From Fimbriimonadaceae bacterium (GTDB lineage Bacteria > Armatimonadota > Fimbriimonadia > Fimbriimonadales > Fimbriimonadaceae): DNA of 64,000 bases. Under the pieces are notes generated by a model, which was given only the letters and a program-made list of their open reading frames with translations, did no database searches and was not told the DNA's origin. The stretch covers positions 971,564-1,035,563 of the forward strand of contig CP075366.1 in assembly GCA_019454145.1 (NCBI GenBank). The letters run 5' to 3'. Both the position numbers and the translations under genes were made by a program. Shown piece after piece: positions 33,486 to 48,894 of this stretch (positions are counted from its first letter, which is position 1; every line of letters starts with the position of its first letter).

Positions 33486-35173
33486 ATGATTCCCGGTTTG
33501 AACAATCAACCAGTGCTAATTGCAGGCTTACTTCTAGTGTCAGCTTCGCTAGCTACCGCGCAAGTCAACGTGGAATAAGCCAATTACCTTTTTGGGCAAC
33601 ACGATTGGGCGGCGGCGGGCAAAGAATATGAAGGTCTTGTTAAAGAAAACCCATACCAAGGCCTTTACTGGTTCCGATACGGTGTTGCTCACTATTAACT
33701 AAAAACTACGGTACGGCAATTACTGCATACACCAAGTCACTTGAACTTGGTTGTGGCGGGAGTTCGGCACTCGGCGGAATGGCGTGGAGTTGTCGTGGAA
33801 AGGGCGAGCTTGAAAACGCAGCAAAAACATTTGAACAGGTTATGCAAGCCGATCCTGCGATGATTGATCAACTCCAAACTCCTGAGATGCGCAAAAACCT
33901 TGGAGATGCACTTTATAAAAAATTATTTGGTGAATTTGGAACCCCGGAAGCACCTCGAGTAGAAGGATGGCGAGCAGATTTGGCATTCTGCATGAAGACA
34001 CTTCAGAACTCTCATTACAACATTAACGCCAAAACTTCAGAAGAAAAGTGGAACTCGATCTTTCATAACCTGAATGATTCTATTCCAAATCTAACAGATA
34101 AGGAGGTTCAATTTGAATTCATGAAGTTGGTTGCCCTTGCGGGCGACGGTCACACATGCACATGGCCGATACTTAATCCAGCAAATAAATACACGATGCT
34201 CCCTGCCGTGATTTATCCTTTCAAGGACGGCTACTTCATACGCTCAGCGGCCCAAGAATATGAATCGATTATCGGTAGCAAAGTCACCCGGATTGGCTCA
34301 ATGACGATCGAGGATGTTGCTAATGCGATCACACCTTATGTAGGACACGAAAACCCGATGCATGCTCTTTGGAATTCTCCACTATTGATGGGCACAATAG
34401 AGATTCTAAAAGCGATTGGAGCTACCAATACACTCGATACCGTAAACCTGACTATTGAGGGAGAAGGCAAAACGAAAACTATTACCATGAAGACAATTCC
34501 ACTTAATCGATCTCTTTACGGTGACCGCGACGAAGGCTCAATCTGGAAGAAAATGAATTCGGGTGCTACAAACCCAACCCCGTTATATACCAAGAAGCCA
34601 GATGATCCCTATTGGTTTGAATACTTAGAAGACGACAAAATACTTTATTTTCACTACGGCAATGTCTTCAGCAAGGAAAGCGAACCCTTCGGCGATTTTG
34701 TAAACCGAATGTTTGCAGTCGTTGACTCAAAACCAGTCGAAGCAATGGTAATTGATTTACGAGATAACTTTGGTGGAAGCTCTGAATTATATAAACCGCT
34801 AATTAAGAAACTCATACAGCATCCGAAGATATCAAGTAAAGGCTACTTGTTTACGCTTATAGGGCGTTCCACATACTCCGCAGCTATTAATTTGGCGGTT
34901 GATCTTGAATACTGGACCGATACACTCTTCATTGGAGAGCCTACTGGATGTAGCCCCAACTTTATTGGCGAAAATAAACTATTCACACTGCCTTATTCCG
35001 GCCTGAAAGTGAGCGTCTCAGATCGCTACCATCAGCATGGTCGGTCTGATTCAACCGACAAGCGAATTTGGATTGCACCAAACATTCCTGCCGAATTCAC
35101 ATCTGAGGACATCCGCAATAACCGCGATCCTGGCATGAAGGCGGTAATTGACTACCTCGACTATCGTGGCTAA
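33486..35173 (+). pseudogene. Broken TPR plus S41 (tail-specific) protease gene
   Basis: The ATG at 33486 begins a signal peptide (LIAGLLLVSASLATAQ). The frame then meets TAA at 33576, continues in the same frame with clear TPR-like coding (FGQHDWAAAGKEYEGLV) to another stop at 33696, and resumes one frame over (KNYGTAITAYTKSLELG) into the long open part from about 33700. The C-terminal 460 residues are an S41-type protease: LAGDGHTCTW, AMVIDLRDNFGGSSEL and the serine region GRSTYSAAINLA. One nonsense change plus one indel argue for inactivation; a truncated protein without signal peptide could start at 33779. The 3' end overlaps a decayed RHS cassette. Confidence 0.75.
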
Positions 35174-35630
35174 AAAAGGTGGGTAGGGCATTTTGAATAA
35201 GGGATTGTCCGATCTGATGTGCCTCTTCATCTGAACAACCATCAAAATCTAATCGATCAACGGGGTTGTTGCTTGCGTAGACATAATAATTTACGCCGCT
35301 TCGTTTGAGATCCTGGCTCACAAACCTCCCTGATCCAGGTTCGTAGTACCGAGCCCGCATATACACGAGTCCGGATTCATCGTCTTGCACATGTCCCAGA
35401 TTTGCGACATACCGCCCCTTCGGCCCACCAGTTGCATTGCCTTGGCGCATTCCGCCCCAGACATCGTAGTTGCGCTCGTCACCGATATTCCAAGTCGTAC
35501 CGCCAGAATTCTTGGTTACGGTTGCAATCATGTTCCCATGTGTATCATACAACGGATAAGCTACCGTTGTACTGCTCGAACCTACGGTCTCTATTGCCTC
35601 AATCCCACGAGCACCAACAAAATTCCGAGT
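35097..35630 (-). pseudogene. RHS cassette 5: truncated orphan tip
   Basis: Begins abruptly at 35630 within the RHS core (RNFVGARGIEAI), runs in one frame through YPLYDTHGN, ERNYDVWGGMRQ, GRYVANLGHVQDDESGLVYM, RARYYEPGSGRFVSQD and YVYASNNPVDRLDFDG, then starts a tip (SDEEAHQIGQSLIQNAL) that resembles the start of the cassette at 39508. After about 15 tip residues the frame runs antisense into the S41 gene, so the rest of the tip is lost. No start codon fits the core start; a TTG at 35552 is the first possible. Most likely a decayed donor cassette. Confidence 0.7.
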
Positions 35631-35874
35631 CTATTTATGAGATGGGTATGCTCAGGCTAATTTAGCCCAGAGTATTTCTAATAGTTTCGCAATCTATGAT
35701 CTGACCCACCTCTTCAAGCCCCAGCTCTTGACGGCAATGAGTCGTAATGGCACACTTCTAGAAGAAACTCTTAATACTAAGTTCAACAACAAAGCGAACC
35801 AAGTTGAGATGTTTGCTTAGTTTAGCATCTTGATTAGTGCTATCAAGATTGAATTTCAATCTTACGCAACTTCT
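35631..35874 (+). other. Junction segment with a possible coding remnant
   Basis: Between the cut RHS core and the next minus-strand gene. On the plus strand a frame without start is open to TAG at 35820 and reads protein-like (YAQANLAQSISNSFAIYDLT; LTAMSRNGTLLEETL). It could be the 3' end of a lost gene brought in by the rearrangement. I do not recognise it. Confidence 0.25.
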
Positions 35875-36279
35875 CTACTTGATTGTTACCCCAGGATTCG
35901 CTACACCAATTACTATCGGAAATAATATGCAAATACTTAAACCAACGCCTACAAGCAATCGAGCCTTTCCCTTAGAATGAATATATAGAAGGATGCCCCA
36001 TATTATAGGAATCAACCAAGCAATTAAGAATATAGAAGCCTGTATCAATGCAACATCATAAGGATCAATGCCTCCATCACGATGAGCTAGTATGTTCTGT
36101 AAAGATTCTGAAGGAGCTATTGGCGTTCTATCTTTGCCTTGAATTAACAACCATAAAAACAAATGTGGTCCACATTGCGTCAAGGTGAGAATAGTAACCA
36201 CACTTAAATAGCATAGGTGCATATAACCTATTGCGATACGGGTCTCTTGCCTATCTGCTTCCAAATTTAGCCACTCCAA
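35875..36279 (-). CDS. Small membrane protein behind RHS cassette 4
   Basis: 134 residues. Hydrophobic segments at about 20-45 (LCYLSVVTILTLTQC), 80-102 (LIQASIFLIAWLIPIIWGILLY) and 108-128. No family recognised. Its start overlaps the end of the preceding small membrane gene by 29 bases in another frame. By position it belongs to the string of small membrane genes that separate RHS cassettes and may be an immunity-type partner; unproven. Confidence 0.5.
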   Translation of the reverse strand: MEWLNLEADRQETRIAIGYMHLCYLSVVTILTLTQCGPHLFLWLLIQGKDRTPIAPSESLQNILAHRDGGIDPYDVALIQASIFLIAWLIPIIWGILLYIHSKGKARLLVGVGLSICILFPIVIGVANPGVTIK

Positions 36280-36598
36280 CTGCTACCAATAAAACCAGAA
36301 ACAGACCCAATGAGATAGTACTAACTATGAGATTGCTAAGCAGATGCCCTCTAATTACCCCAACCACAAGCAAGAAAATGGACATTATAAAAAAGAGTGC
36401 CCCAATAATCGCATACACAGTTGAAATTTGTTTATGGCGTTGGTCAGATTCCGCCTTCCACGTTTTCATATAAGTTCTAAACTGGCTATCCTCCTCACCA
36501 TACTCCGTTACCGTCTGGGGCTCAGTGGAACTACTCTGAATCGAATCGTAAATCAAGCAAGTCATACCAATTGGCCCACCGAAGATTAGTGAAACCAA
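36251..36598 (-). CDS. Small membrane protein following RHS cassette 4
   Basis: 115 residues from a TTG at 36598. Two membrane segments in the C-terminal half (VYAIIGALFFIMSIFLLVVG; NLIVSTISLGLFLVLLVAVG) after a polar part. A run of seven A (36597-36603) lies at the start: with one base fewer the frame would join an upstream ATG at 36617 and give MLVAAFLVSLIFGGPIGM, a better membrane-type N-terminus. Either a frameshift or a wrong base count is possible. Candidate immunity partner for the tip at 36662. Confidence 0.5.
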   Translation of the reverse strand: MVSLIFGGPIGMTCLIYDSIQSSSTEPQTVTEYGEEDSQFRTYMKTWKAESDQRHKQISTVYAIIGALFFIMSIFLLVVGVIRGHLLSNLIVSTISLGLFLVLLVAVGVAKFGSR

Positions 36599-36661
36599 AA
36601 AAAGCAGCCACTAACATTTTGGCGTATGGAGATATTTTATAATCATTACCTATCATATAAC

Positions 36662-37579
36662 TCATTCGCTGTCAATGTCATCCAAATACCAACTTAACCT
36701 CATGGAATATCCCATACATAGGACGCCAAATTTCTGCAAGATTCTGCCACAACAGACAAGGATTCCAATTGTGCCAATAATTGCACCAGGCCCACCAAGA
36801 GCAACTGCAACCATAGAAGATAGCAATCCAATAATATCGTAGCCTAGGCCGACGGCTCCGCTGTCATCCCAAGATGAGAATAGGGAATAATTCCATTCAT
36901 ACATAAACTGTCCGTAGGCTTCCTCAACGTCCGCAGAATCCTTAACGCTGAGAAGTGCTGTTGCAAACTTTCGTAAGCATTGCCCACCAACTGCAAGTAG
37001 CCCAATCCCCTCACCCGTACCAACAATTGAAATTGCATCTATTATGGCTATCAAAACAGTGATAAAAATAGCGGTAGTTCCAGAAAAATCTGCGAAACTC
37101 GCTGGCGCATTGCGTGCATAAATATACCAATTACCTCCATCATTTCTTGGATCCTCGCTAATAAACCTGCCACTCTCCGGCTCATAGTATCTGGCCCTCA
37201 TGTAGATCAAACCGGACTCATCGTCTTGCACATGTCCCAGATTTGCGACATACCTTCCCTTCGGCCCGCCCGTTGTGTTACCTTGACGCACTCCTCCCCA
37301 GACATCATAATTCCGCTCGTCTGCGATGTCCCAAGCAGTGCCTCCACTTAAAGGGCGAACCGTTGCAATCATATTCCCATGTGTATCATACAACGGATAA
37401 CTCGTTACCGCTCCACTTCCACTATCCACCGTCATCGCCTCTATCCCTCTGGCACCAACAAAATTCCGAGTTACTGTATCGCTAGAAGTACCGGTCGTAT
37501 CAAAGTCTTCTTCTGTCGGCATCTGCCCATCGTAGTAGCTACGAGTAGTTCCAGCTGAGCAAGATTTCTTTACCCGCAT
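36662..37579 (-). CDS. RHS cassette 4: core repeat plus hydrophobic tip
   Basis: 305 residues from an internal ATG (MRVKKSC). Core homology begins a few codons earlier at YRADG, but a stop lies just before and no start codon fits, so this may be a silent cassette. The core runs through SYYDGQM, FVGARGIEAMTVDSGSG, YDTHGN, DERNYDVWGG and YYEPESGRFISED to NAPASFADFSG; then a unique tip with several membrane-type helices (AIFITVLIAIIDAISIVG; MVAVALGGPGAIIGTIGIL). No known toxin domain recognised. Followed by small membrane genes. Confidence 0.65.
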   Translation of the reverse strand: MRVKKSCSAGTTRSYYDGQMPTEEDFDTTGTSSDTVTRNFVGARGIEAMTVDSGSGAVTSYPLYDTHGNMIATVRPLSGGTAWDIADERNYDVWGGVRQGNTTGGPKGRYVANLGHVQDDESGLIYMRARYYEPESGRFISEDPRNDGGNWYIYARNAPASFADFSGTTAIFITVLIAIIDAISIVGTGEGIGLLAVGGQCLRKFATALLSVKDSADVEEAYGQFMYEWNYSLFSSWDDSGAVGLGYDIIGLLSSMVAVALGGPGAIIGTIGILVCCGRILQKFGVLCMGYSMRLSWYLDDIDSE

Positions 37580-37703
37580 CCCATCTGCGCGGTAACCACA
37601 ATGAACTTATTTTATTGATCTCATCTTATCTAAAAGGCCGTATGGTGCCCCGTTTATCATAGTAGTTAGAAATACTCGCATACTTTCACTAATAAAATGA
37701 ATA

Positions 37704-37967
37704 CTAAAAAATGACGTTCAGGACAACTCCGCCAAGAAGGAGGATGAGAAAGTAAATCAATTCACGAATAAATATCCTTACTCTTATGGACGCATTGTTA
37801 TTTTCAGACTTTAGTGCTTCCATCACTATGACGCTGGAAGCAGTAACCATAAACGACGATAAAGTTGCGATAGCCATGGAGTCATACGGGGATATAACTT
37901 TCACAAAAACGAATATGCAAAAGCCAACCGTATAAAGCGATATTCTTACTTTTCTCAACTTTGTCAC
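37704..37967 (-). CDS. Small membrane protein paired with RHS cassette 3
   Basis: 87 residues, three hydrophobic stretches: ISLYTVGFCIFVFVKVI, MAIATLSSFMVTASSVIVM and LIYFLILLLGGVVLNVIF at the C-terminus. Its ATG overlaps the stop of the cassette-3 gene (ATGA), which suggests coupled synthesis with that tip. Candidate immunity protein by position and size only. Confidence 0.55.
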   Translation of the reverse strand: MTKLRKVRISLYTVGFCIFVFVKVISPYDSMAIATLSSFMVTASSVIVMEALKSENNNASIRVRIFIRELIYFLILLLGGVVLNVIF

Positions 37968-39256
37968 TGTGAATCCATTTCCATGAGTTCGAATAATACT
38001 TGCATACTCCTACCAAAGACCGCTGCGACAGGCATACTTACCATAGATAAGCCACTAAGAGCTGCTTCAAGCCAGCCGCCAAACCCAGCAATGCCGATTG
38101 CAAACATTCCGGCGATCACCTCAATTAAAATCCAGGTGCCTAAAGCTGCAGCTGAAACTGCAGCGAGAGATCCAGTTACCCATAAGCCAGCCGCTATAAC
38201 AATAACTGCAGTTGCAGCACCAGCAACTGCGGCAGCGATTGTTCCAGCTGTAGTCGGCTCTTGACCTTTACCATATTCACCTGCTTGATATACAGCGGCA
38301 CCAATAAGGGCACCCAGAATAGCCGCTAAAATCCAGAGAGCTGGCACAATCCAGTTGCCTGATGAATCGACAAAATTCACTGGATTTGATTTACAATATG
38401 TATACCAATTGACCCCTTGTCTAACTGAATCCTCGTTTATAAACCTCCCGGTTTCCGGTTCGTAGTACCTCGCCCGCATATAAATCAGGCCGCTTTCATC
38501 ATCCTGCACGTGGCCCAAGTTGGCGACATACCGACCCTTCGGCCCGCCCGTTGTGTTACCCTGGCGCACTCCGCCCCAGACATCGTAGTTCCGCTCATCA
38601 TATATATCCCAAGCGGTTCCGCCGCTTAGTGATCTCACAGTTGCAATCATATTCCCATGTGTATCATACAACGGATAACTCGTTACCGCTCCACTTCCAC
38701 TGTCCACCGTCATTGCTTCAATGCCGCGGGCACCAACGAAGCTACGGGTGAGTTTTACACTGCTACCGTCGTTCACATCTTCTTCAACTGGCATCTGACC
38801 ATCATAGTAACTCCGAGTCAGTATTGTAGTTGTTCCATCACCCACTTCTTTTTTCACGCGCATGCCGTCAGCTCGATAAGTGAATTCACTATCCCATCCA
38901 GCGATGCCGGAAGAAATGCCAATAAGGCGATTCACGCGATCCCAGTAATACGATTCATCGCCAGAACTGGGCGTTTCCTTATAGGTTCGGTTTCCAACCG
39001 CGTCATGCTCATAAGTTGCACCAGGGCTTGCCGTCATCCGGTTTAAGTTGTCGTAAGTCCAAGAACCAACCTTCGCACTCGCAGAAATTCTGTTACCCGC
39101 CGCATCATAACCCCACGTTTGAACTTCGTTGCTTAAACCATCGTTGTAGTCAACATCTGTTAAATAGTCAAAGTCTGCATCGTAGCCGTAATATTCGGTG
39201 CGAACCGTGCTCCAGTTAGCATAACCAGGAGTGGTTCTTGCTAACACAAAATGCAC
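37964..39256 (-). CDS. RHS cassette 3: long core repeat plus hydrophobic tip
   Basis: 430 residues from a GTG at 39256. Homology to the main RHS protein starts within ten residues (RTTPGYANWSTVRTEYYGY) and continues through YD repeats and the core to YYEPETGRFINED and VNFVDSSGN. The segment 38535-39052 is identical at the DNA level to 41319-41836. The tip is unique and strongly hydrophobic/Ala-rich (PALWILAAILGALIGAAVY; AGTIAAAVAGAATAVIVIAA; AALGTWILIEVIAGMFAIGI). No recognised enzymatic domain. Stop overlaps the start of the 87-aa membrane protein. Confidence 0.7.
   Translation of the reverse strand: MHFVLARTTPGYANWSTVRTEYYGYDADFDYLTDVDYNDGLSNEVQTWGYDAAGNRISASAKVGSWTYDNLNRMTASPGATYEHDAVGNRTYKETPSSGDESYYWDRVNRLIGISSGIAGWDSEFTYRADGMRVKKEVGDGTTTILTRSYYDGQMPVEEDVNDGSSVKLTRSFVGARGIEAMTVDSGSGAVTSYPLYDTHGNMIATVRSLSGGTAWDIYDERNYDVWGGVRQGNTTGGPKGRYVANLGHVQDDESGLIYMRARYYEPETGRFINEDSVRQGVNWYTYCKSNPVNFVDSSGNWIVPALWILAAILGALIGAAVYQAGEYGKGQEPTTAGTIAAAVAGAATAVIVIAAGLWVTGSLAAVSAAALGTWILIEVIAGMFAIGIAGFGGWLEAALSGLSMVSMPVAAVFGRSMQVLFELMEMDSQ
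38535..39052 (-). repeat. RHS core repeat, copy in cassette 3
   Basis: About 518 bp that I read as identical to 41319-41836. Sequence on both sides is clearly homologous but diverged (for example TCGTAAGTCCAAGAACC versus TCATAAGTCCAAGAGCC at one end), so the identical tract is bounded like a conversion track. Confidence 0.85.
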
Positions 39257-39274
39257 TACTTCTAAATCGCATCT

Positions 39275-39502
39275 TCATTTTTTGCTATTCGTAGAGGAAG
39301 TATTGCTCTTACTTTGATTAGCTCGTCGTGCAATTTGTCGATACTGAGCCAAACTCGTTGATTTGGAAAACGTAATCCAAATATAGCTAATTAAAAAAAC
39401 ACCCCCAAGAACTAAACCAGCATTTCGCGGAATTTGATCCCAGAATAGAGCGACCATGCAAATCAATCCAATAAACCCTATTGTGATTACTCGATTATTC
39501 AT
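39275..39502 (-). CDS. Small membrane protein following RHS cassette 2
   Basis: 75 residues: two helices (VITIGFIGLICMVALFW; AGLVLGGVFLISYIWITF) and a basic, Ser-rich tail (RRANQSKSNTSSTNSKK). It starts 5 bases after the cassette-2 stop and ends 18 bases before the cassette-3 start. Candidate immunity partner for cassette 2. Confidence 0.55.
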   Translation of the reverse strand: MNNRVITIGFIGLICMVALFWDQIPRNAGLVLGGVFLISYIWITFSKSTSLAQYRQIARRANQSKSNTSSTNSKK

Positions 39503-39507
39503 AGCAA

Positions 39508-40494
39508 TTATTGCGGTTGAGTATCAAACCATTCCTCCAATTTACCAATTAAGCCCGATGGTAACCCTCCCGGTTTACCGGCTTCAATAAAGGATGCTGC
39601 AAATTCCCAACCATCATCCCCGAGTGCGGCCAGTATTGATCCAGCTTTTGCCAGATAAAGACCTCTTACAACTGCATTTACACCTTGCATCATTGCTCCA
39701 GTCCCCAAAAGCATCAGCAGCATTCCTTTTCTCAAGTGGTCTGCTGCAACTAATGAGTATGCGCCCCCGTTTGGCCACGAAAGTATTGCAAGGCCAGTCA
39801 AATACTCAATTTGACCTCTAATGTGATTTATCATTCCTGATAAAAATGCTGCAATGCCAATTGACATAAGTATTTTAGCGTAATCCATTAATGCAGTGCC
39901 TAGTTGTTGTGTTTCTTCATCAGAATTACCACTAGGATCACATTTAGTAGTTGGCAGATTACTTGCATATACAAAAAAATTTCTTCCCGTCTTGTATAAA
40001 TCCTCGCTAATAAACCTCCCCGTTTCCGGCTCATAGTATCTGGCCCGCATATAAATGAGCCCGGACTCATCATCTTGCACATGACCGAGATTGGCCACAT
40101 ACCGCCCCTTAGGCCCGCTGGTTGCAGCACCTTGGCGCACTCCGCCCCAGACATCGTAGTTCCGCTCATCACCTATATTCCAAGCGGTACCCGCACCGTT
40201 TTTAGTTACGGTCGCAATCATATTCCCATGTGTATCATACAACGGATAACTCGTAGTTGTCGTTGTCCCATCATCCACCGTCATCGCTTCGATACCCCCA
40301 GCACCGATAAAGTTTTGAGTTAGCTTCACAAAGTTTTGGCTGATGGATTCTCGCTCCTCTTCTTCAATAGGCATTTGCCCATCGTAGTAGCTTCTCGTTA
40401 CGTTTGTCACAGTCCCATCGCTTGATTCCTTGCGCACACGCATGCCATCGGCGCGGCAAGAATTTGAATAGCCAGAAATTATTAATGGGCTCAT
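39508..40494 (-). CDS. RHS cassette 2: core repeat plus hydrophobic tip
   Basis: 328 residues. About 13 unrelated residues (MSPLIISGYSNSC) precede the core, which starts at RADGMRVRKES, the same boundary as in cassette 4. Core: SYYDGQM, FIGAGGIEAMTVDDG, YDTHGN, DERNYDVWGGVRQG, YYEPETGRFISED, TKCDPSGN. Tip: SDEETQQLGTALMDYAKILM then helices (SIGIAAFLSGMINHI; MLLMLLGTGAMMQGVNAVV). Its ATG overlaps the stop of the 83-aa membrane protein (ATGA), so translation can be coupled to the preceding gene. Confidence 0.7.
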   Translation of the reverse strand: MSPLIISGYSNSCRADGMRVRKESSDGTVTNVTRSYYDGQMPIEEEERESISQNFVKLTQNFIGAGGIEAMTVDDGTTTTTSYPLYDTHGNMIATVTKNGAGTAWNIGDERNYDVWGGVRQGAATSGPKGRYVANLGHVQDDESGLIYMRARYYEPETGRFISEDLYKTGRNFFVYASNLPTTKCDPSGNSDEETQQLGTALMDYAKILMSIGIAAFLSGMINHIRGQIEYLTGLAILSWPNGGAYSLVAADHLRKGMLLMLLGTGAMMQGVNAVVRGLYLAKAGSILAALGDDGWEFAASFIEAGKPGGLPSGLIGKLEEWFDTQPQ

Positions 40495-40742
40495 TTTGTT
40501 CCGGTTCGATGAGTTGCCCTCAATTCAAAATATATTAAAGCAATTGCCAGGTAAACAATCGCATAGACAATATGCAACGCTCCAGCAATGGATGCTAAAG
40601 GTATGCCCAGAAATAATGTTGTTCCAAACACAACTAGCTCGTTCTTTGTCTTAACTCGATGTCTTTTTATTACACTGAACAGATAAATTACTGCAATTAT
40701 CTGCACTGAATACTGTATGGCAATCATTATGGAAGCCCCCAA
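40491..40742 (-). CDS. Small membrane protein following the main RHS gene
   Basis: 83 residues, three hydrophobic stretches (IMIAIQYSVQIIAVIYLFSV; LVVFGTTLFLGIPLASIAGA; IVYAIVYLAIALIYF). The start lies 16 bases inside the 3' end of the main RHS gene and its stop overlaps the cassette-2 start. Placement right behind the tip of the active RHS gene is where an immunity gene normally sits. Confidence 0.55.
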   Translation of the reverse strand: MGASIMIAIQYSVQIIAVIYLFSVIKRHRVKTKNELVVFGTTLFLGIPLASIAGALHIVYAIVYLAIALIYFELRATHRTGTK

Positions 40743-43700
40743 AAGCTATCTTGACCAGGATAAGAATCAGTTGCCATACCTTCCATTAAGTCAGCCATCA
40801 GTAATCCTATAATCAACAATGAGTAACCGATGACTGCTCCTGCTAATTTTCCTGTAGGAAGCTTACCAAGACACTTTGCACTGAAAGCTGCTACTGCTAA
40901 AGTCCCACCAAATGCTGAGAGAGCTAACCCTACGGCCCACTTCAATGTTGCACCATCATTTGAATGGGTGCTCCATGCAGTACCTATCACAGCGATTAGT
41001 AATGTCGCGGCAGTGATAGCTTCGAAAGCATCCTTGGCACTCTCTGCAGATGCCATCCACATCCCAATCCCAAAAGCAAAAGGCACAGCAGCAAGGATTC
41101 CTAAAAACGCGATAAATTGACCAACGTTCTCATCTGATTGGCCATCATAATCTGCCCTACAAGTGGGTAAATTTGAAGCATATATATACCAATTATAACC
41201 AGATTTTCCTGGATCACGACTGATAAACCTTCCACTTTCAGGCTCATAGTATCGAGCCCTCATATAGATCAAGCCCGACTCGTCGTCCTGCACATGACCA
41301 AGATTGGCAACATACCTTCCCTTCGGCCCGCCCGTTGTGTTACCCTGGCGCACTCCGCCCCAGACATCGTAGTTCCGCTCATCATATATATCCCAAGCGG
41401 TTCCGCCGCTTAGTGATCTCACAGTTGCAATCATATTCCCATGTGTATCATACAACGGATAACTCGTTACCGCTCCACTTCCACTGTCCACCGTCATTGC
41501 TTCAATGCCGCGGGCACCAACGAAGCTACGGGTGAGTTTTACACTGCTACCGTCGTTCACATCTTCTTCAACTGGCATCTGACCATCATAGTAACTCCGA
41601 GTCAGTATTGTAGTTGTTCCATCACCCACTTCTTTTTTCACGCGCATGCCGTCAGCTCGATAAGTGAATTCACTATCCCATCCAGCGATGCCGGAAGAAA
41701 TGCCAATAAGGCGATTCACGCGATCCCAGTAATACGATTCATCGCCAGAACTGGGCGTTTCCTTATAGGTTCGGTTTCCAACCGCGTCATGCTCATAAGT
41801 TGCACCAGGGCTTGCCGTCATCCGGTTTAAGTTGTCATAAGTCCAAGAGCCAACCTTTGCACTGGCAGAAATTCTATTCCCTGCCGCATCATAACCCCAC
41901 GTTTGAACTTCGTTGCTTAAACCATCGTTGTAATCCACCTCGGTGAGGTAGTCAAAGTCGCTATCATAACCGTAATACTCCGTGCGAGTGGTGCTCCAAG
42001 TATCGTAACCAGGAGTTGCACGGGTAAGAAAACTCGTACTTGTCTTTAGCCCAAGATCATGAGCATAAGCCGCAGTGGTTCCACGGATAGATTCCCGCGC
42101 ATAGCTACCACTGACTAACTGGTTCCAGTAATGCTTTACGCCAAGCGTACGGCCCGAAGTATCGTACTCGTACTCTGCGCTCACAAAACTCAATGGAGCA
42201 TTAGTTGTATCGTAGTTCGAAGCGCTACTTTGCGGAGTCATCGCAAACAATGCCTTGGTCATTTGCCCAAGCCCGTTAAAGATGTAACGAACTTCTTCGG
42301 CACTGTTCACCCAGTTCCCGCTGACGTACGCTTGTTTATTGATGCGTGTGAACATCCGGTTGACATTGACGCCTGTGCCACGGATTCCGTAGCCCGAATA
42401 CTTATAACGGGTGGTTCCGTTTGGAGTAGCGATGGTAGAGGTCGAACGATTCCCAATTTCATCGTAGGTGTAATCGGTTGTTGTGACTTGGCTACTACCC
42501 GCATCTTCTACGATAGTGGCTGGCGCACCTTTAGCCACTCCACTTTGAACGTAGTCAATCTCTTGCTCAACTCCGCTCAAGCCATCGGTGATAGTGAGCG
42601 GTTGACCGTTCTCAACTGTTGCATCAGTAGTTCCGTAGGTGTAACTCACCACGTTTTGGCTACCTTGATCCACGCTCAGAACATTGCCATCAACATCGTA
42701 AGTGGTGGTAAACACACGATTGGCTGCATCTTGGGTTTCTATAGCCTTACCTAAAAGGTCGAACTCTAAAGTTTCGGTGGTGCGGGCACTGGCTCCACCA
42801 TAGTCCTCAGTGACTTCGGTAGCATTACCATACGCAGGCGCGTTGTCTGCCCCGTAAACACTTCTGGTTTGAACGTAGTTATAGGTTCCGCTCACTACCT
42901 TTTGGAGCTTCCAAACATCTACCGGGCGGCCTTTGCTATCGTAATCGAACTTAGCCGAGTACTTGGCGGTATCTGCTTTGATTTGGTACTTCCAAGCATA
43001 GGCAGTGCCGTAAGAAGGCACAGTTTCGCCTGTGTCTAACCAAATGCCACCATGCTTGTTATCGTAGACTTTGTACGTTTGACCTTTTTTTCCTTGGGTT
43101 GCACTGCTGTCGTAGTAGTCGGTAAATGAATATCGGACGGTGGAACCAGCGGTAACTCGAACTGCCTTTTGTTGGAAGTACTTATCTTCGCCCCAAAATG
43201 CCGTATCCGTGGTCACTAACCGGGTTTGAGCACCTTGCCCCCACTGATCGGGCCAAGCGTATTCATATTTCTTTTCTTCGACCGGATTGCCGAGGAAGTT
43301 ATATTTAGTAGTCTTTTTGGAAATTGTTGGATATACACTGCCAAGCCCAATATTGCCAATGGATGGATCAAGTGTTCCGACTTGCTCTTCGATTAGGTTT
43401 TGACTAATATCGTCGTATGTTTTTTGAGTTGAAACCTGAACAACAGTGTTTCCGTCAAATCCAGGGTTGTCCACCGGGCCGGAATCGTAAACTAACTGAC
43501 CGTTGTCCGTTTCTTCACCTACACGCATCCCACCAGAAATAGGTGTATATGTGACAACGCTGTATTCTCCAGGCACGGTTGTGCCACCTGCTCTGCCTAC
43601 AACCGCCGTTCGAAGACCATTTGTTATTCCGACGTTTAGCGTGTAGACGATTCCTGAGGGTTCTGTGATTTGCGTAACACGCACGGAGTCTGAGGGGTAG

Positions 43701-44899
43701 GAATATCCATCAATAATAATGTCAGTGCTATACGAAATGTAAGTTGACATACCCCGAGGGTCAGTCATTGAAGTCATTAAGTTTCCGGAATAGCCGTAAC
43801 GATTGATCCGACCATATTCAGGCGAACCACTTCCGATTGTTCGTACTTGCTGGACAGAAGTGAGTTGACCGCTCGTGTATCCGTAGAGTACTTTGCGTTC
43901 TTCTGCCGAACTGTAAGCTCGAATTTGAGTGACCCTATCGCCCGTCCAAGTGAGTTCAATACTTCGACCGTTAGGCATATCAACGCCGACAAGTGGATTT
44001 TCACTTACGTCGCCATTTGACTTGGTAAAAGTGACCGGTGTAGTTCCGTAAGTGTAAGTCGTCTCGTTATTGTGTCGATCCTTGACCCAAACGGGTTTAA
44101 GAACATTGTTTGGTTCGGCGGTTGCGCCAGCATCATCCCAAGGTTTTGATCCGCTTGTGTATTCTCCTTGTTTTTCGTACTGATAGACCGTGCCATCTGG
44201 GGTCATGGTCTTGTTTGAAATCAAAACCCAATAAAGAGCACCCCCGAAAGTCACATATTCATATTCAGTTTCGTATTCGTTTTTGTCCCACGGAGGAGTT
44301 GTGAGAATGCCGTCAACGTCTCTTTGAACAGTTGTTTCTTTGCCATCCGCATCCGTGACAATAACCGCTTCAACTGGCTGAGAAGGAATGTTGGGATCCG
44401 TCTCAGAACTGGGGCGGCGTTTCATTCCAGTTGGCACACTTCGTACAGGCGCCTTGGAACTCTTGAGCAGCCCTCCCGCAGTGGATCGAAGGTCGGCGCT
44501 TAGAGTCCAACCAATACCAAACGGGCCTTCATCAATACTATTCGCCGAATATGAGCGGGTGATGTTGACTGGGATACCATAGCCACCTTCAAAACTGAGA
44601 TCCGTTGCCGATGTCGAATAGTTTCCTGTTCGCAGGTTGACGCCCTTATAAACGACATCAAACTTTGCTTGTCCAGCATAATAGGGGTTGCCAAGACGCC
44701 CTTTGAGTTGCCCCATCTCCTTTGCCGACAGCTTTCTCGATTCCACTGGTTTGGCCTTGGTGGTCGGTTCTTCAACCTCGACTGGTTTATTGGGGTCATA
44801 AGCGTACAAGTTAGATGGTATCCCCAGCGTCAACATGAGGATTGCGCAGATATTGCAAAGAGGTTTGCGCAGTCGAGATTCGGCAATAGTTGTTATCAC
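40727..44899 (-). CDS. RHS/YD-repeat secreted protein (main gene)
   Basis: 1390 residues. Signal peptide at about 1-33 (ICAILMLTLGIPSNLYA). An N-terminal DUF6531-like region follows (VNLRTGNYSTSATDLSFEGG; ITRSYSANSIDEGPFGIGWT), then many YD repeats that would build a hollow shell, and the RHS core (YDTHGN; DERNYDVWGG; GRYVANLGHVQDDESGLIYM; RARYYEPESGRFISRD; PTCRADYDGQ). The last 140 residues are a tip with several membrane-type helices (FIAFLGILAAVPFAFGIGMW; AGAVIGYSLLIIGLLMADLM). Usual RHS proteins deliver a C-terminal toxin; no known toxin domain is recognised here. Coupled by ATGA to the C39-like gene upstream. Confidence 0.88.
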   Translation of the reverse strand: MITTIAESRLRKPLCNICAILMLTLGIPSNLYAYDPNKPVEVEEPTTKAKPVESRKLSAKEMGQLKGRLGNPYYAGQAKFDVVYKGVNLRTGNYSTSATDLSFEGGYGIPVNITRSYSANSIDEGPFGIGWTLSADLRSTAGGLLKSSKAPVRSVPTGMKRRPSSETDPNIPSQPVEAVIVTDADGKETTVQRDVDGILTTPPWDKNEYETEYEYVTFGGALYWVLISNKTMTPDGTVYQYEKQGEYTSGSKPWDDAGATAEPNNVLKPVWVKDRHNNETTYTYGTTPVTFTKSNGDVSENPLVGVDMPNGRSIELTWTGDRVTQIRAYSSAEERKVLYGYTSGQLTSVQQVRTIGSGSPEYGRINRYGYSGNLMTSMTDPRGMSTYISYSTDIIIDGYSYPSDSVRVTQITEPSGIVYTLNVGITNGLRTAVVGRAGGTTVPGEYSVVTYTPISGGMRVGEETDNGQLVYDSGPVDNPGFDGNTVVQVSTQKTYDDISQNLIEEQVGTLDPSIGNIGLGSVYPTISKKTTKYNFLGNPVEEKKYEYAWPDQWGQGAQTRLVTTDTAFWGEDKYFQQKAVRVTAGSTVRYSFTDYYDSSATQGKKGQTYKVYDNKHGGIWLDTGETVPSYGTAYAWKYQIKADTAKYSAKFDYDSKGRPVDVWKLQKVVSGTYNYVQTRSVYGADNAPAYGNATEVTEDYGGASARTTETLEFDLLGKAIETQDAANRVFTTTYDVDGNVLSVDQGSQNVVSYTYGTTDATVENGQPLTITDGLSGVEQEIDYVQSGVAKGAPATIVEDAGSSQVTTTDYTYDEIGNRSTSTIATPNGTTRYKYSGYGIRGTGVNVNRMFTRINKQAYVSGNWVNSAEEVRYIFNGLGQMTKALFAMTPQSSASNYDTTNAPLSFVSAEYEYDTSGRTLGVKHYWNQLVSGSYARESIRGTTAAYAHDLGLKTSTSFLTRATPGYDTWSTTRTEYYGYDSDFDYLTEVDYNDGLSNEVQTWGYDAAGNRISASAKVGSWTYDNLNRMTASPGATYEHDAVGNRTYKETPSSGDESYYWDRVNRLIGISSGIAGWDSEFTYRADGMRVKKEVGDGTTTILTRSYYDGQMPVEEDVNDGSSVKLTRSFVGARGIEAMTVDSGSGAVTSYPLYDTHGNMIATVRSLSGGTAWDIYDERNYDVWGGVRQGNTTGGPKGRYVANLGHVQDDESGLIYMRARYYEPESGRFISRDPGKSGYNWYIYASNLPTCRADYDGQSDENVGQFIAFLGILAAVPFAFGIGMWMASAESAKDAFEAITAATLLIAVIGTAWSTHSNDGATLKWAVGLALSAFGGTLAVAAFSAKCLGKLPTGKLAGAVIGYSLLIIGLLMADLMEGMATDSYPGQDSFWGLP
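41319..41836 (-). repeat. RHS core repeat, copy in the main RHS gene
   Basis: Partner of 38535-39052, offset 2784 bases. Covers the core up to about 40 codons before the tip switch. Shorter, diverged copies of the same core lie in the other cassettes; a stretch around GTATCATACAACGGATA occurs in all five. Confidence 0.85.
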
Positions 44900-45858
44900 T
44901 TTTTAGCTCCAGTAGTGTTAGATTGAATCGTTAGAATCGTGGCTGAAAACGATTTGTCGCTGGCCGCAGGGATAGAAATTTCTCGGTCGTTTTTGATGAA
45001 CGGATCGTAAACCAGCACTTTCGCTGGCTTAATTTGTTTTACGAGAAGATAATGCTCTTGGTTAAGCCAAATAAATGGCACCCTTTTTCGCCTAAAATCA
45101 TTATTGTCAACAAGTAAGCCTTCGCAGGAGAATCCGCGTGATTCCAAGGATTTTTGAATTCCAGCCATTGATGTTCCATCTTCTGAAGTGCCACATTCTT
45201 TTTCTAGGATGTCCAGAGATGGAATGGACAGATTCTTAGCCTTGTAAAACTCTTGGATGCAGCGAGGCCCACAGAGTGCCATTTCTCTCTTCGCATTTGC
45301 CTGTTGCTTATCGACGGCTACTTGAAGCAACTGATCGTAGTCCTCACGAGATTTGCCCTCTGGCAACATCTTTATCAGTCGTTTGTGCACGCCGTAGACT
45401 AATGGAGAAAGCGGTCTATCTTGAATAAACTCAACGTACTCGTCTCTGGCCTGAGCGACTTTGCCTTCCGCCATCAGACAGTTAATCGCTTGGTAACGAG
45501 CTTGGTCGATCACTTCACCGTAAGAGGGGTCTTGAGCATCGGAACCTTTGTGCTTAGCTTCTGTTTCAAGAAAAATTGCCCTGGCCTCTTCTAGATTCTT
45601 CTCATTTGCTTCAATATATGCAAGCTTCATTCTTGCAGCGGACACTGAATCCTGAACCGATGTATCTGGACTATTTAAGTTTTTCTCAACATAGTCATTC
45701 AGCGCTTCCTTCTTTTCCGGTTGCCTAAGATTCTCGGTGTAGGCTAGTCTATTGGAGTTTGCTGATTTTTGCTGATTCGCAATCCACTGATAAGCTCCTA
45801 GCCCAATGGTTAAGATAGCCAGTGCAGACAATGCGTAAATGCTATTCCTCATTCCCAC
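44896..45858 (-). CDS. Membrane-anchored C39-like cysteine peptidase
   Basis: 320 residues. One N-terminal anchor (SIYALSALAILTIGLGAYQW), a helical TPR-like region (about 40-190) and a C39-type domain: Cys196 in ALCGPRCIQEFY, GTSMAGIQKSLESRGFS, His269 in WLNQEHYLLV and Asp285 in VLVYDPF. The Cys-His-Asp order is intact; the usual upstream Gln is not obvious. The stop overlaps the RHS start (ATGA) and the start overlaps the Gly-rich gene by 10 bases. It could process the RHS protein or its tips, or act on a delivered peptide; this is inference from the tight operon. Confidence 0.75.
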   Translation of the reverse strand: MGMRNSIYALSALAILTIGLGAYQWIANQQKSANSNRLAYTENLRQPEKKEALNDYVEKNLNSPDTSVQDSVSAARMKLAYIEANEKNLEEARAIFLETEAKHKGSDAQDPSYGEVIDQARYQAINCLMAEGKVAQARDEYVEFIQDRPLSPLVYGVHKRLIKMLPEGKSREDYDQLLQVAVDKQQANAKREMALCGPRCIQEFYKAKNLSIPSLDILEKECGTSEDGTSMAGIQKSLESRGFSCEGLLVDNNDFRRKRVPFIWLNQEHYLLVKQIKPAKVLVYDPFIKNDREISIPAASDKSFSATILTIQSNTTGAKK

Positions 45859-47372
45859 ACCGATGCCGAGACAGTTTCGTTGTGCCCCCCAACATTCTCA
45901 ATGAGAAACTGCCAGATTCGCGGAGCCATATCTACAAATGAGGTGGGAATTACATCTTGAAAGTTCGTAGAAACAAACTCCTTATCGGCAATGTAGCGCC
46001 ACCAAGTGTTGTTCGCATCGACTTTGGTCTGTTCATCATGCAATGCGTAAATAATTCCTCCAAAGATTGGAGTTGACCAAGTAGTTCGGTACGGTGTAAT
46101 TCCTCCTACGGGGGTTTGCGCAACATCATAAACTTTTGTCAGACTCACAGACAGGAAACCCGCCGCATCAGATGAATTGACCGTAAATTTTCTATAAGGA
46201 TCCTTATCTTGCTCGTAGGAGTATCCCGAAGGAATAGAAGCTCTCGGAACTACATTCCATTTATTCGACCAAGTGAATTCATCTTCCTCTATCATTAAAT
46301 CAGCTCCACTTGGAGGACCAAAAAGTCCAATATCCATGGATCCAGAGATATTGGCTGGTGAACCCATTTGGTATACGGTTACAACCATCATACGGGCTGG
46401 AGTTGTTATATTTGCTACGGTACTTCTAAGTAGTTGCACCCTAGATGTTCCACTTCGATCACCACTGCTCGACGGCATATTTCCAACAAACATTCCACCC
46501 TTAAATGTCCAGTCACCAAAATTAATGTTTCTCAATTCTGCATTTGGATCCGCAGGAAACTGCCCTTCTCTATTTGGTTGACCGTATCCGCGTCGAGAAT
46601 CGACAGATCCATCACCAAAGCCATCATCTCGAATTAAATCATAAACCGCTTCTTGATGCGTCAACGAGTAAGAACCCATCCCATTATAAAGCGCCCTCGT
46701 TACCATGACTCTGGGATTTCCAGACGGTAACTTAACGTAAGACCGGAGGAAATAACAAACTGTCACTTCCTGTCCGGCAGTAAGTTTAACTCTGAGCCCA
46801 GGCTCTGCCGATCCAGGCGTTGCATAAGGGCCGCTCCCACTGTAGTCATAGCCCTTATAGTCATATATTTGCGGAGACACGCCAGTTTGAACTAGGAATC
46901 CCATTGTTGGCCCAGATGCCCCTGTCGAGCTGGGAATTCTTAGCCAATACGATAATGTTTCGGTACTTCCGCCCCCTTCGCCTCCACCAGTTCCTCCACC
47001 TGGGCCTTCTCCGCTACCTTCAACGAGGTTTTCTTCCCCTCCTGAAGATCCGCCAGAACCACCAGATCCACCTTCAATTGATGAGCCACCTGCTGTGTCA
47101 ACTCCGTTCATATATTTATATGTCATTGCCATTACATTACGGGTCTCGGTAACCATGACAGGTTGATTTGAGCTGTTTACGCTTCTCACAATTACGGAAG
47201 CATCTTTGATTTCCTTTGCTCGAACCAAGCGAACTTGAATATATGCGTCATCGCCCGTGGACATCGTCTGGGCAACCGCTACTGATCCGATCATCGCAAG
47301 ACCTGCTATAACAATTGCTTTCAATGAAAGCCGTACAAAAACTTTGGAACCAACGCCCATAACCGCGATCAT
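45849..47372 (-). CDS. Secreted Gly-rich protein at the head of the RHS operon
   Basis: 507 residues. Hydrophobic signal segment (LSLKAIVIAGLAMIGSVAVAQ), a beta-rich part, a flexible Gly/Ser/Glu linker at about 93-135 (GGSGGSGGSSGGEEN; GEGPGGGTGGGEGGG), then a long beta-rich region without a motif I know. First gene of the operon with the C39-like peptidase and RHS gene. May be a surface or periplasmic scaffold for the system; no function can be assigned. Confidence 0.6.
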   Translation of the reverse strand: MIAVMGVGSKVFVRLSLKAIVIAGLAMIGSVAVAQTMSTGDDAYIQVRLVRAKEIKDASVIVRSVNSSNQPVMVTETRNVMAMTYKYMNGVDTAGGSSIEGGSGGSGGSSGGEENLVEGSGEGPGGGTGGGEGGGSTETLSYWLRIPSSTGASGPTMGFLVQTGVSPQIYDYKGYDYSGSGPYATPGSAEPGLRVKLTAGQEVTVCYFLRSYVKLPSGNPRVMVTRALYNGMGSYSLTHQEAVYDLIRDDGFGDGSVDSRRGYGQPNREGQFPADPNAELRNINFGDWTFKGGMFVGNMPSSSGDRSGTSRVQLLRSTVANITTPARMMVVTVYQMGSPANISGSMDIGLFGPPSGADLMIEEDEFTWSNKWNVVPRASIPSGYSYEQDKDPYRKFTVNSSDAAGFLSVSLTKVYDVAQTPVGGITPYRTTWSTPIFGGIIYALHDEQTKVDANNTWWRYIADKEFVSTNFQDVIPTSFVDMAPRIWQFLIENVGGHNETVSASVWE

Positions 47373-47541: not shown

Positions 47542-47617
<76 letters not shown>

Positions 47618-47680: not shown

Positions 47681-48199
47681 GTGATCCGACTCGCCACCAA
47701 GCAAGATGAACCCCAAATCCAGCACGTGGTACACACGGTGTACGACGAATATGGATTCGGCTGGGAACCAGATGGCTACGTTCGCGATTTGTACGACATC
47801 GAAAACTACTTCGCCGCTCCTAATGCGTTTTGGGTAGCCGAAGTCGATGGCCAAATTGTCGGATGCATTGGCATCGAACTCTTCCCTACTATCCACGGCG
47901 AACCAGGCACCATCGTGGATGGAAAGAAAAAAAAGCGCATTGCCGGAACAGATTGCGAGCTTGTTCGGCTTTACACATTGCCAGAAGCGCGAGGTAAGCA
48001 AGTCGGCTTACAGCTTTGCCAAACGTGTATCGAATACGCCAAATCCCAAGGCCGAACGCTCATGGAAATCTGGTCGGACGTCGAACTCAAGCGGGCACAC
48101 GCTTTTTACGAAAAGCTCGGGGCAAAAAACATCGGCGAACGGTATTGCCCTCCCCCCGATGACTGGACAGAATTCGGATTCATTTACGATTTGCGCTAG
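47681..48199 (+). CDS. GNAT N-acetyltransferase
   Basis: 172 residues from a GTG. GNAT order: MIRLATKQDEPQIQHVV, strand AFWVAEVDGQIVGCIGIEL, acetyl-CoA motif A ELVRLYTLPEARGKQVGLQL (the R/Q-x-x-G-x-G/A loop as RGKQVG) and DVELKRAHAFYEKLGAKNIG. Substrate unknown. The translin-family gene follows with its likely start about 75 bases beyond this stop. Confidence 0.88.
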   Translation: MIRLATKQDEPQIQHVVHTVYDEYGFGWEPDGYVRDLYDIENYFAAPNAFWVAEVDGQIVGCIGIELFPTIHGEPGTIVDGKKKKRIAGTDCELVRLYTLPEARGKQVGLQLCQTCIEYAKSQGRTLMEIWSDVELKRAHAFYEKLGAKNIGERYCPPPDDWTEFGFIYDLR

Positions 48200-48273
48200 T
48201 GCTCGCCCGGCACAAGGCCAAGCCCCCGAACCGATCGAGGAATCGAAACCAGAAGTCAGCTAAACTCCACACC

Positions 48274-48894
48274 ATGAGCTGGGAACAAACCGTCGCGGAA
48301 CTCAAAACAGAAATGGAAGGCAAACACGCCGCCCGCGAAGATGCTCTCAAGGCCTCGCGAGCGCTCATCCAAACCTGTAGCAAGTGCATCAAAAACATCC
48401 ACCGCCACAATTTCGCTGAAGCCGCCCAACTGCTTGACCAAGCCAAATCCCAGGCTCAGCAAGCACGATCACAGGTCACAGAGCATCCGGAAATCGAATA
48501 CGCTGGCTACCTGCAGGATGCGGAAAAAGAACTCGTCGAAGCCGCCGGCTGCCTAGCTTTAGCTCAAGGTCAACCGTTGCCAACCTATTTTGAGCTAGCA
48601 GTTAATGCAACCAGCTACCTTAACGGAATGGGAGAATGCGCAAGCGAAATGAGACGGTTCGTACTCGATAAAATGCGCAATGGCGATCTCGAAACCGCTC
48701 AAAACATCCTGCAACAAATGGATGAGATTTACGACGACCTCACCACGTTCGATTTTCCAGATGGCCTTACTGGGGGTTTGCGTCGAACTTGCGATGCTCT
48801 CCGGGCCGTAATCGAACGAACTCGCTCTGATCTCACCCTCACAAAAATCCAATACGATCTGATTACTGAACTAAAATCAGCGAAAAAGCCTTAA
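48274..48894 (+). CDS. Translin-family protein
   Basis: 206 residues from the ATG at 48274 (MSWEQTVAELKTEMEG); a frame from 48199 would add 25 basic residues without support. All-helical, with translin-like blocks: SRALIQTCSKCIKNIHRHNF, ELAVNATSYLNGMGECASEM, DLETAQNILQQMDEIYDDLT, FDFPDGLTGGLRRTCDALRA and IERTRSDLTLT. Translin/TRAX proteins assemble into rings that bind RNA or single-stranded DNA, and some cut RNA. They are well known in eukaryotes and archaea and less so in bacteria. Confidence 0.8.
   Translation: MSWEQTVAELKTEMEGKHAAREDALKASRALIQTCSKCIKNIHRHNFAEAAQLLDQAKSQAQQARSQVTEHPEIEYAGYLQDAEKELVEAAGCLALAQGQPLPTYFELAVNATSYLNGMGECASEMRRFVLDKMRNGDLETAQNILQQMDEIYDDLTTFDFPDGLTGGLRRTCDALRAVIERTRSDLTLTKIQYDLITELKSAKKP

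Follow-up and report, generated by a model that had tools for sequence, protein, structure and literature searches.

The TPR-C39-RHS locus

The stretch of DNA analysed here, called the window, covers 64,000 nucleotides of the genome of a Fimbriimonadaceae bacterium (contig CP075366.1, positions 971,564 to 1,035,563), which consists of a single contig of 2.76 Mb. On its minus strand lies a rearrangement hotspot (RHS) toxin gene, preceded by a gene for a tetratricopeptide repeat (TPR)-like protein with a C39 peptidase domain and by a gene for a secreted protein:

45849-47372, minus strand: gene 1, open reading frame (ORF) of 507 amino acids
44896-45858, minus strand: gene 2 (TPR-C39), ORF of 320 amino acids with a GTG start, encoding an N-terminal membrane anchor, TPR-like repeats and a C39 peptidase domain
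40727-44899, minus strand: gene 3 (RHS), ORF of 1390 amino acids with a GTG start

The sequence-only reading of this DNA had described three overlapping genes, and this was confirmed, with an overlap of 10 bases between genes 1 and 2 (45849-45858) and of 4 bases between genes 2 and 3 (44896-44899). A search for the same gene order elsewhere, as proposed in that reading, showed that it recurs at more than 20 loci in the Armatimonadota order and that the genes are often found together. The C39 gene is also located directly upstream of an RHS gene in many further loci across the phylum, many of them without a match to gene 1. Within the order, 20 genomes carried both the C39 gene and the RHS N-terminal subfamily, one only the RHS gene, one only the C39 gene, and 91 neither (Fisher p 5.5e-20, which is only indicative because the genomes are related). 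In the RHS-only genome (G171) the N-terminus looked decayed, and in the C39-only genome (G168) the contig ends after the C39 gene. Among genomes of the same genus, those without the RHS subfamily or the C39 gene were also without its partner. As many genomes repeat this order of the three genes and the RHS and C39 genes co-occur, the arrangement is not due to chance. An alignment search with the RHS N-terminal region gave matches only in Armatimonadota, including a Fimbriimonadaceae metagenome-assembled genome and 'Armatimonadetes bacterium Uphvl-Ar1'.

The C39 peptidase and a leader-like site in the RHS propeptide

The domain organisation of gene 2 given in the sequence-only reading, which consisted of a membrane anchor, helical repeats and a C39 domain with Cys196, His269 and Asp285, held up in the profile search, the structural model and the alignment of relatives:

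44911-45288, minus strand: C39 domain, residues 191-316
45271-45273, 45052-45054 and 45004-45006, minus strand: catalytic codons of Cys196, His269 and Asp285, respectively

The Pfam profile Peptidase_C39 (PF03412) matched residues 196-315 (E 3e-15, 56.7 bits against a cut-off of 22), TPR models matched residues 72-155 below threshold, and the three catalytic residues were invariant in all 34 aligned relatives. In the AlphaFold model (pLDDT 93.4), a helix at residues 3-41 that includes a hydrophobic stretch is followed by helical repeats (46-194) and the C39 fold (191-316). The best structural matches of the latter were PCAT1, LahT147 with its leader peptide (6mpz) and ComA (Z 16-16.6, root-mean-square deviation (rmsd) 1.9-2.0 across about 118 residues). 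The modelled domain superposes in its fold on active C39 peptidases, and to that extent gives no sign of the missing catalytic geometry that would have spoken against the peptidase. Gene 2 lacks the transmembrane and nucleotide-binding domains of ATP-binding cassette (ABC) transporters and so is not a peptidase-containing ABC transporter (PCAT), having only the TPR part and the anchor.

At the chosen cut-off, 28 of the 34 C39 proteins had a hydrophobic N-terminal segment, and most of the others were slightly under it. One relative (L017) has a lipobox, indicating a lipoprotein signal, and a fused one (L025b) has a signal peptide. Because of these signals and the N-terminal helix, the C39 domain is predicted to face away from the cytoplasm. 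At three loci (L089, L090 and L092), exported C39 domains precede a series of repeated domains, without RHS, and represent another non-transporter C39 family in the phylum. Among the matches listed in a tblastn search of plasmids, most were to ABC exporters or to stretches without annotation.

The RHS protein consists of a signal peptide, a leader-like propeptide, a DUF6531 plug, YD repeats, an Rhs core and a C-terminal tip, in that order, with DUF6531 and the core scoring above cut-off:

44801-44899, minus strand: signal peptide region, residues about 1-33 (from sequence and hydropathy)
44696-44731, minus strand: leader-like propeptide site LSAKEMGQLKGR, residues 57-68
44486-44641, minus strand: DUF6531 N-terminal plug, residues 87-138 (PF20148, E 2.9e-9, 37.6 bits)
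41138-41371, minus strand: Rhs core with two autoprotease Asp positions, residues 1177-1254 (TIGR03696, E 3.9e-15, 56.1 bits)
40730-41137, minus strand: C-terminal tip, residues 1255-1390, with four predicted transmembrane segments

The C39 domains of PCATs recognise the consensus L(-12)XXXE(-8)L(-7)XXXXG(-2)G(-1) in their substrates, where position -4 is also important (PMC6959990; PMC6363468). The window site, between the signal peptide and DUF6531, fits this consensus at L(-12), E(-8), L/M(-7), the hydrophobic position -4 and G(-2). It belongs to a motif, L-[ST]-x-x-E-[ML]-x-x-L-x-G-[RKAG], that C39-linked RHS proteins share between the signal peptide and the plug. The motif was compiled from 37 leaders: 32 from RHS genes within 1.3 kb of a C39 gene, three from C39-RHS fusions, a single one located at the edge of a contig (L124), and another from an unlinked paralogue in a C39-bearing genome (L123). 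Gly at -2 was present in all 37, with L(-12) in 33, S/T(-11) in 32, E/D(-8) in 33, M/L(-7) in 35 and L/I(-4) in 28. When each leader was scored with a profile built without it, the motif was the best site in 37 of 37 proteins, most with 10-26 bits, compared to a mean of 0.4 bits and a 99th percentile of 8.9 for shuffled sequences, although homology among the rows inflates these scores. The motif was kept between groups with dissimilar flanking sequences (for example the window, L071-L078, L082-L088, L025 and L095).

As controls, 291 genomes of the phylum supplied 40 further DUF6531 RHS regions in which no C39 gene was adjacent; three of these turned out to be C39-RHS fusions. The motif was found in none of the about 33 controls that could be evaluated (those of the 37 non-fusion regions with a usable N-terminus), including the second RHS gene of the window genome (L193). 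For the association between leader and C39 linkage, Fisher p was 3.7e-16, with related rows. In a tree in which many forks were weakly supported, C39-linked (L082-L088) and C39-free (L161-L194) RHS proteins fell in one broad clade, therefore the motif appears to follow the C39 gene rather than RHS ancestry.

A scan of ORFs at these loci (265,145 residues) gave 36 sites of at least 13 bits. Known leaders accounted for 34 of these, and the remaining two were an RHS protein in a C39 locus that had been left out of the training (L068) and one unrelated site. Pfam and NCBIfam scans of ten leader segments gave nothing above threshold (the string of protein 9 was inexact, and had no match). The only sub-threshold NCBIfam matches were to four families of bacteriocins or ribosomally synthesised and post-translationally modified peptides (E 0.085-0.19). 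They were located at the motif, and are suggestive only.

In several RHS proteins the peptidase and the site occur in the same chain. TPR, C39, leader and RHS are fused in the two genes of L025 (LSQQELASAWGG and ISAQEMKLVWGG), in L095 (LSMADLENAWGG) and in L225 (LSPEELRNAWGG), where the GG leader follows the C39 domain and ends in WGG. Two fusions outside the phylum carry a strong leader directly after C39:

874-4662 of L210 (genome G376): TPR-C39-leader-RHS fusion, leader LSEKEMERIRGA
1132-5832 of L211 (genome G313): TPR-C39-leader-RHS fusion, leader LSKKEMKISWGG

Most of the leader-bearing fusions end in GG or GA. Of all the arguments that peptidase and site would act together, this linkage in cis is the strongest, and the coupling between leader and C39 is well supported at the sequence level. 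In another RHS gene (L024, 873-3653), the C39 domain breaks off right past its catalytic His, where RHS repeats take over, resembling a deletion or a misassembly.

From this evidence we consider it likely that the RHS propeptide is removed right before the plug by a C39 peptidase acting outside the cytoplasm. The locus would make a Sec-exported RHS polymorphic toxin together with a peptidase for its maturation. Once the toxin is exported, the TPR-C39 protein, anchored in the membrane, would bind the propeptide at its leader helix LSAKEMGQLKG(R), much as double-glycine peptidases bind bacteriocin leaders, and would cut at or next to residue 68, the C-terminal end of the leader, just before the DUF6531 plug. 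This cut could free the N-terminus of the RHS cocoon from the propeptide, while the tip would be released separately by the C-terminal aspartyl autoprotease of the RHS protein itself. The processing of the RHS protein suggested in the sequence-only reading is thereby retained, as the leader provides sequence evidence for the substrate.

Alternative roles of the peptidase, the toxin tip and gene 1

Several observations weigh against cleavage at this site. The residue at -1 was Arg or Lys in 27 of the 37 leaders (Arg in the window) and Gly or Ala in nine, whereas known substrates carry GG, GA or GS and the C39 cleft is narrow (PMC6363468, PMC6959990). The proposed oxyanion residue, a Gln located six positions ahead of the catalytic Cys, was present in only one of the 34 relatives, the window protein having K190 there. 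In LahT147 the distance between this Gln and the oxygen is 4.3 A, and His may substitute for it (PMC6363468); whether Gln is required is disputed. Some leaders were weak (L021, 5.7 bits; L066, 8.0 bits), and a separate family of long TPR-C39-RHS fusions (L167, L181, L184 and L217-L224) has no clear leader. Of these, L181 and L184 keep the catalytic Cys and L167 has Ala in its place. In the fusions L213-L216, mainly a GGCC stretch is kept after C39 and the helix is degenerate.

These observations can also be explained if the C39 domain binds the leader without cutting it, acting, like the C39-like domain of HlyB, as a docking or chaperone module, and in this case holding the propeptide at the membrane for later export. 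The missing Gln, the basic residue at -1 and the Ala in L167 would all fit with this, and the HlyB domain also matched the gene 2 model (Z 13.2-13.4). The peptidases are nearer in fold, however, pure docking would not require Cys, His and Asp to be invariant in 34 of 34 relatives, and several fused forms keep an intact GG or GA site. We therefore regard docking alone as the main rival to propeptide removal, and as an unlikely one.

The sequence-only reading had placed the cut before the tip, so that the C39 peptidase would release the toxin, and the genetic coupling of the two genes would be in agreement with this. Cleavage at that place was not supported. In the locus-wide scan, RHS sites of at least 13 bits were only N-terminal or C39-linked and no leader-like site was located near the tip, the predicted site being at residues 57-68. 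Many RHS genes of the phylum are not accompanied by C39. All five RHS copies of the window retain the two Asp residues of the C-terminal autoprotease, with a constant spacing of 21 residues, and for this reason the release of the tip probably needs no C39 peptidase. Release by C39 is very improbable.

The other copies are located downstream of gene 3, where a small membrane protein overlapping the RHS end is followed by orphan tip cassettes:

40491-40742, minus strand: candidate immunity protein, small, membrane (from position and hydropathy)
39508-40494, minus strand: orphan tip cassette 1, then a small membrane protein (39275-39502)
37964-39256, minus strand: orphan tip cassette 2, then a small membrane protein (37704-37967)
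36662-37579, minus strand: orphan tip cassette 3, then a small membrane protein (36251-36598)
35097-35552, minus strand: orphan tip fragment 4, with a small membrane protein (35875-36279) between it and cassette 3

The four cassettes have a conserved core and differing ends; gene 3 and the cassettes form a polymorphic toxin array. Across 35097-40742 the core repeats are about 300 bp long and 75-85% identical. This region is a candidate set of polymorphic membrane-acting tips. Membranes are also the probable target of the gene 3 tip, and the small membrane protein encoded downstream is its probable counterpart.

It could also be argued that the motif has nothing to do with C39 and belongs to the structure of the N-terminal plug of RHS, as it lies just ahead of DUF6531, where RHS proteins of the type VI secretion system (T6SS) have seal and anchor elements (PMC8765631). 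This has very little chance of being correct, considering that the motif is absent from the about 33 RHS proteins unlinked to C39, including relatives in the same clade, that it directly follows C39 in the fusions and that it fits the published C39 recognition consensus (PMC6959990, PMC6363468).

Finally, gene 1 is adjacent to gene 2 and its product is also exported, but that C39 processes the gene 1 protein, with only a regulatory link to RHS, is the least probable explanation of all, since none of the 22 gene 1 proteins had a leader-like site (best 5.6 bits), many C39-RHS loci have no gene 1 match, and peptidase and leader are elsewhere fused in one RHS chain.

In the sequence-only reading, gene 1 was a Gly-rich secreted protein and possibly an outer scaffold. 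Secretion was borne out, and 'Gly-rich' was only partly fitting, because the Gly-rich stretch is shared by the window protein and the relative nearest to it but is not conserved in most relatives. The scaffold was replaced by a predicted glycan-binding protein, based on the structural model:

residues 9-30 of gene 1: signal peptide, helix
residues about 96-138 of gene 1: Gly-rich stretch
45900-46649, minus strand: C-terminal CBM96/DNRLRE-like domain, residues 242-491

In this model (pLDDT 71.4), the conserved part of gene 1 has the fold of a carbohydrate-binding module (CBM). Structural comparison of residues 242-491 gave a chondroitin CBM (8wab, Z 12.0, rmsd 3.2) and the alginate CBM96 (7vbo, Z 11.2, rmsd 3.2), after which the matches drop to Z about 7. 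The structure 7vbo defines CBM96, which its authors relate to the DNRLRE domain (PMC9971899). No family was assigned with confidence when gene 1 was scanned against Pfam, and the DNRLRE profile NF033679 matched only one of the 22 gene 1 relatives, weakly (E 0.012), and not the window protein. Co-expressed with the toxin, the gene 1 protein would probably serve either to bind a glycan at the surface or to present the toxin.

A tRNA-Lys gene (ctt, 47542-47617) immediately upstream of the three genes is a possible boundary or integration point. Beyond it, 48199-48894 encodes a protein matching Pfam Translin (E 3.1e-7), and such a match appears to be unusual in a bacterium.

Relation to known systems

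If the proposed cleavage is true, double-glycine processing, which has until now been a step in the cytoplasm, carried out by ABC exporters for small peptides, would take place outside the membrane and on a very large protein. A cleavage signal previously known from small bacteriocins would then be carried by a large polymorphic toxin in the little-studied Armatimonadota. We lean, with some reserve, towards a wider interpretation, in which this is a transporter-free, extracytoplasmic double-glycine system for RHS toxins of more than 1,000 residues, which is encoded either by separate genes or by single-chain fusions that process themselves, is present in more than one phylum, accepts Arg or Lys at -1 and is independent of the usual oxyanion Gln. 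In the open-licence papers searched, we found no description of RHS being paired with, or fused to, a C39 peptidase via a leader.

The known systems closest to the peptidase part are PCAT1, LahT147/LahT150 and ComA (PF03412), which have the same fold, the same Cys-His-Asp triad and the same leader positions (-12, -8, -7, -4 and -2). Unlike these, gene 2 has no ABC part, carries TPRs and a membrane anchor and is predicted to be outside the cytoplasm. Its proposed substrate is a Sec-exported RHS protein of more than 1,000 residues, the oxyanion Gln is mostly absent, and in the separate-gene form -1 is mostly Arg or Lys. A C39-type domain has been tied to polymorphic toxins before, as Tox-PL-C39 (Zhang et al. 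2012, PMC3482391), but there it is the toxin domain, whereas here it is a conserved peptidase, separate or N-terminal, with a leader in the RHS protein. The C-terminal domain of gene 1 has the same fold as CBM96/DNRLRE (Z 11.2 to 7VBO; PMC9971899), with a sequence too diverged for confident family assignment.

On the toxin side, the T6SS effectors RhsA of Pseudomonas protegens and Tse5 of P. aeruginosa share the DUF6531 plug, the YD-repeat shell and the C-terminal Asp pair, as well as a position of N-terminal processing just before the plug (PMC8765631, PMC10684867), and Tse5 also has a pore-forming tip. N-terminal cleavage has been seen in several T6SS effectors and has been described as autoproteolytic with an unknown or divergent mechanism, while its mechanism and purpose have been called unknown or enigmatic (PMC8765631, PMC10684867). 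RhsA and Tse5 differ from the present system in having neither a Sec signal nor C39. With a dedicated peptidase and a recognition signal predicted at the position corresponding to the T6SS RHS N-terminal cut, the question becomes directly testable. The locus suggests a dedicated route for the maturation of RHS toxins, which otherwise lack an explanation for the cut at their front end.

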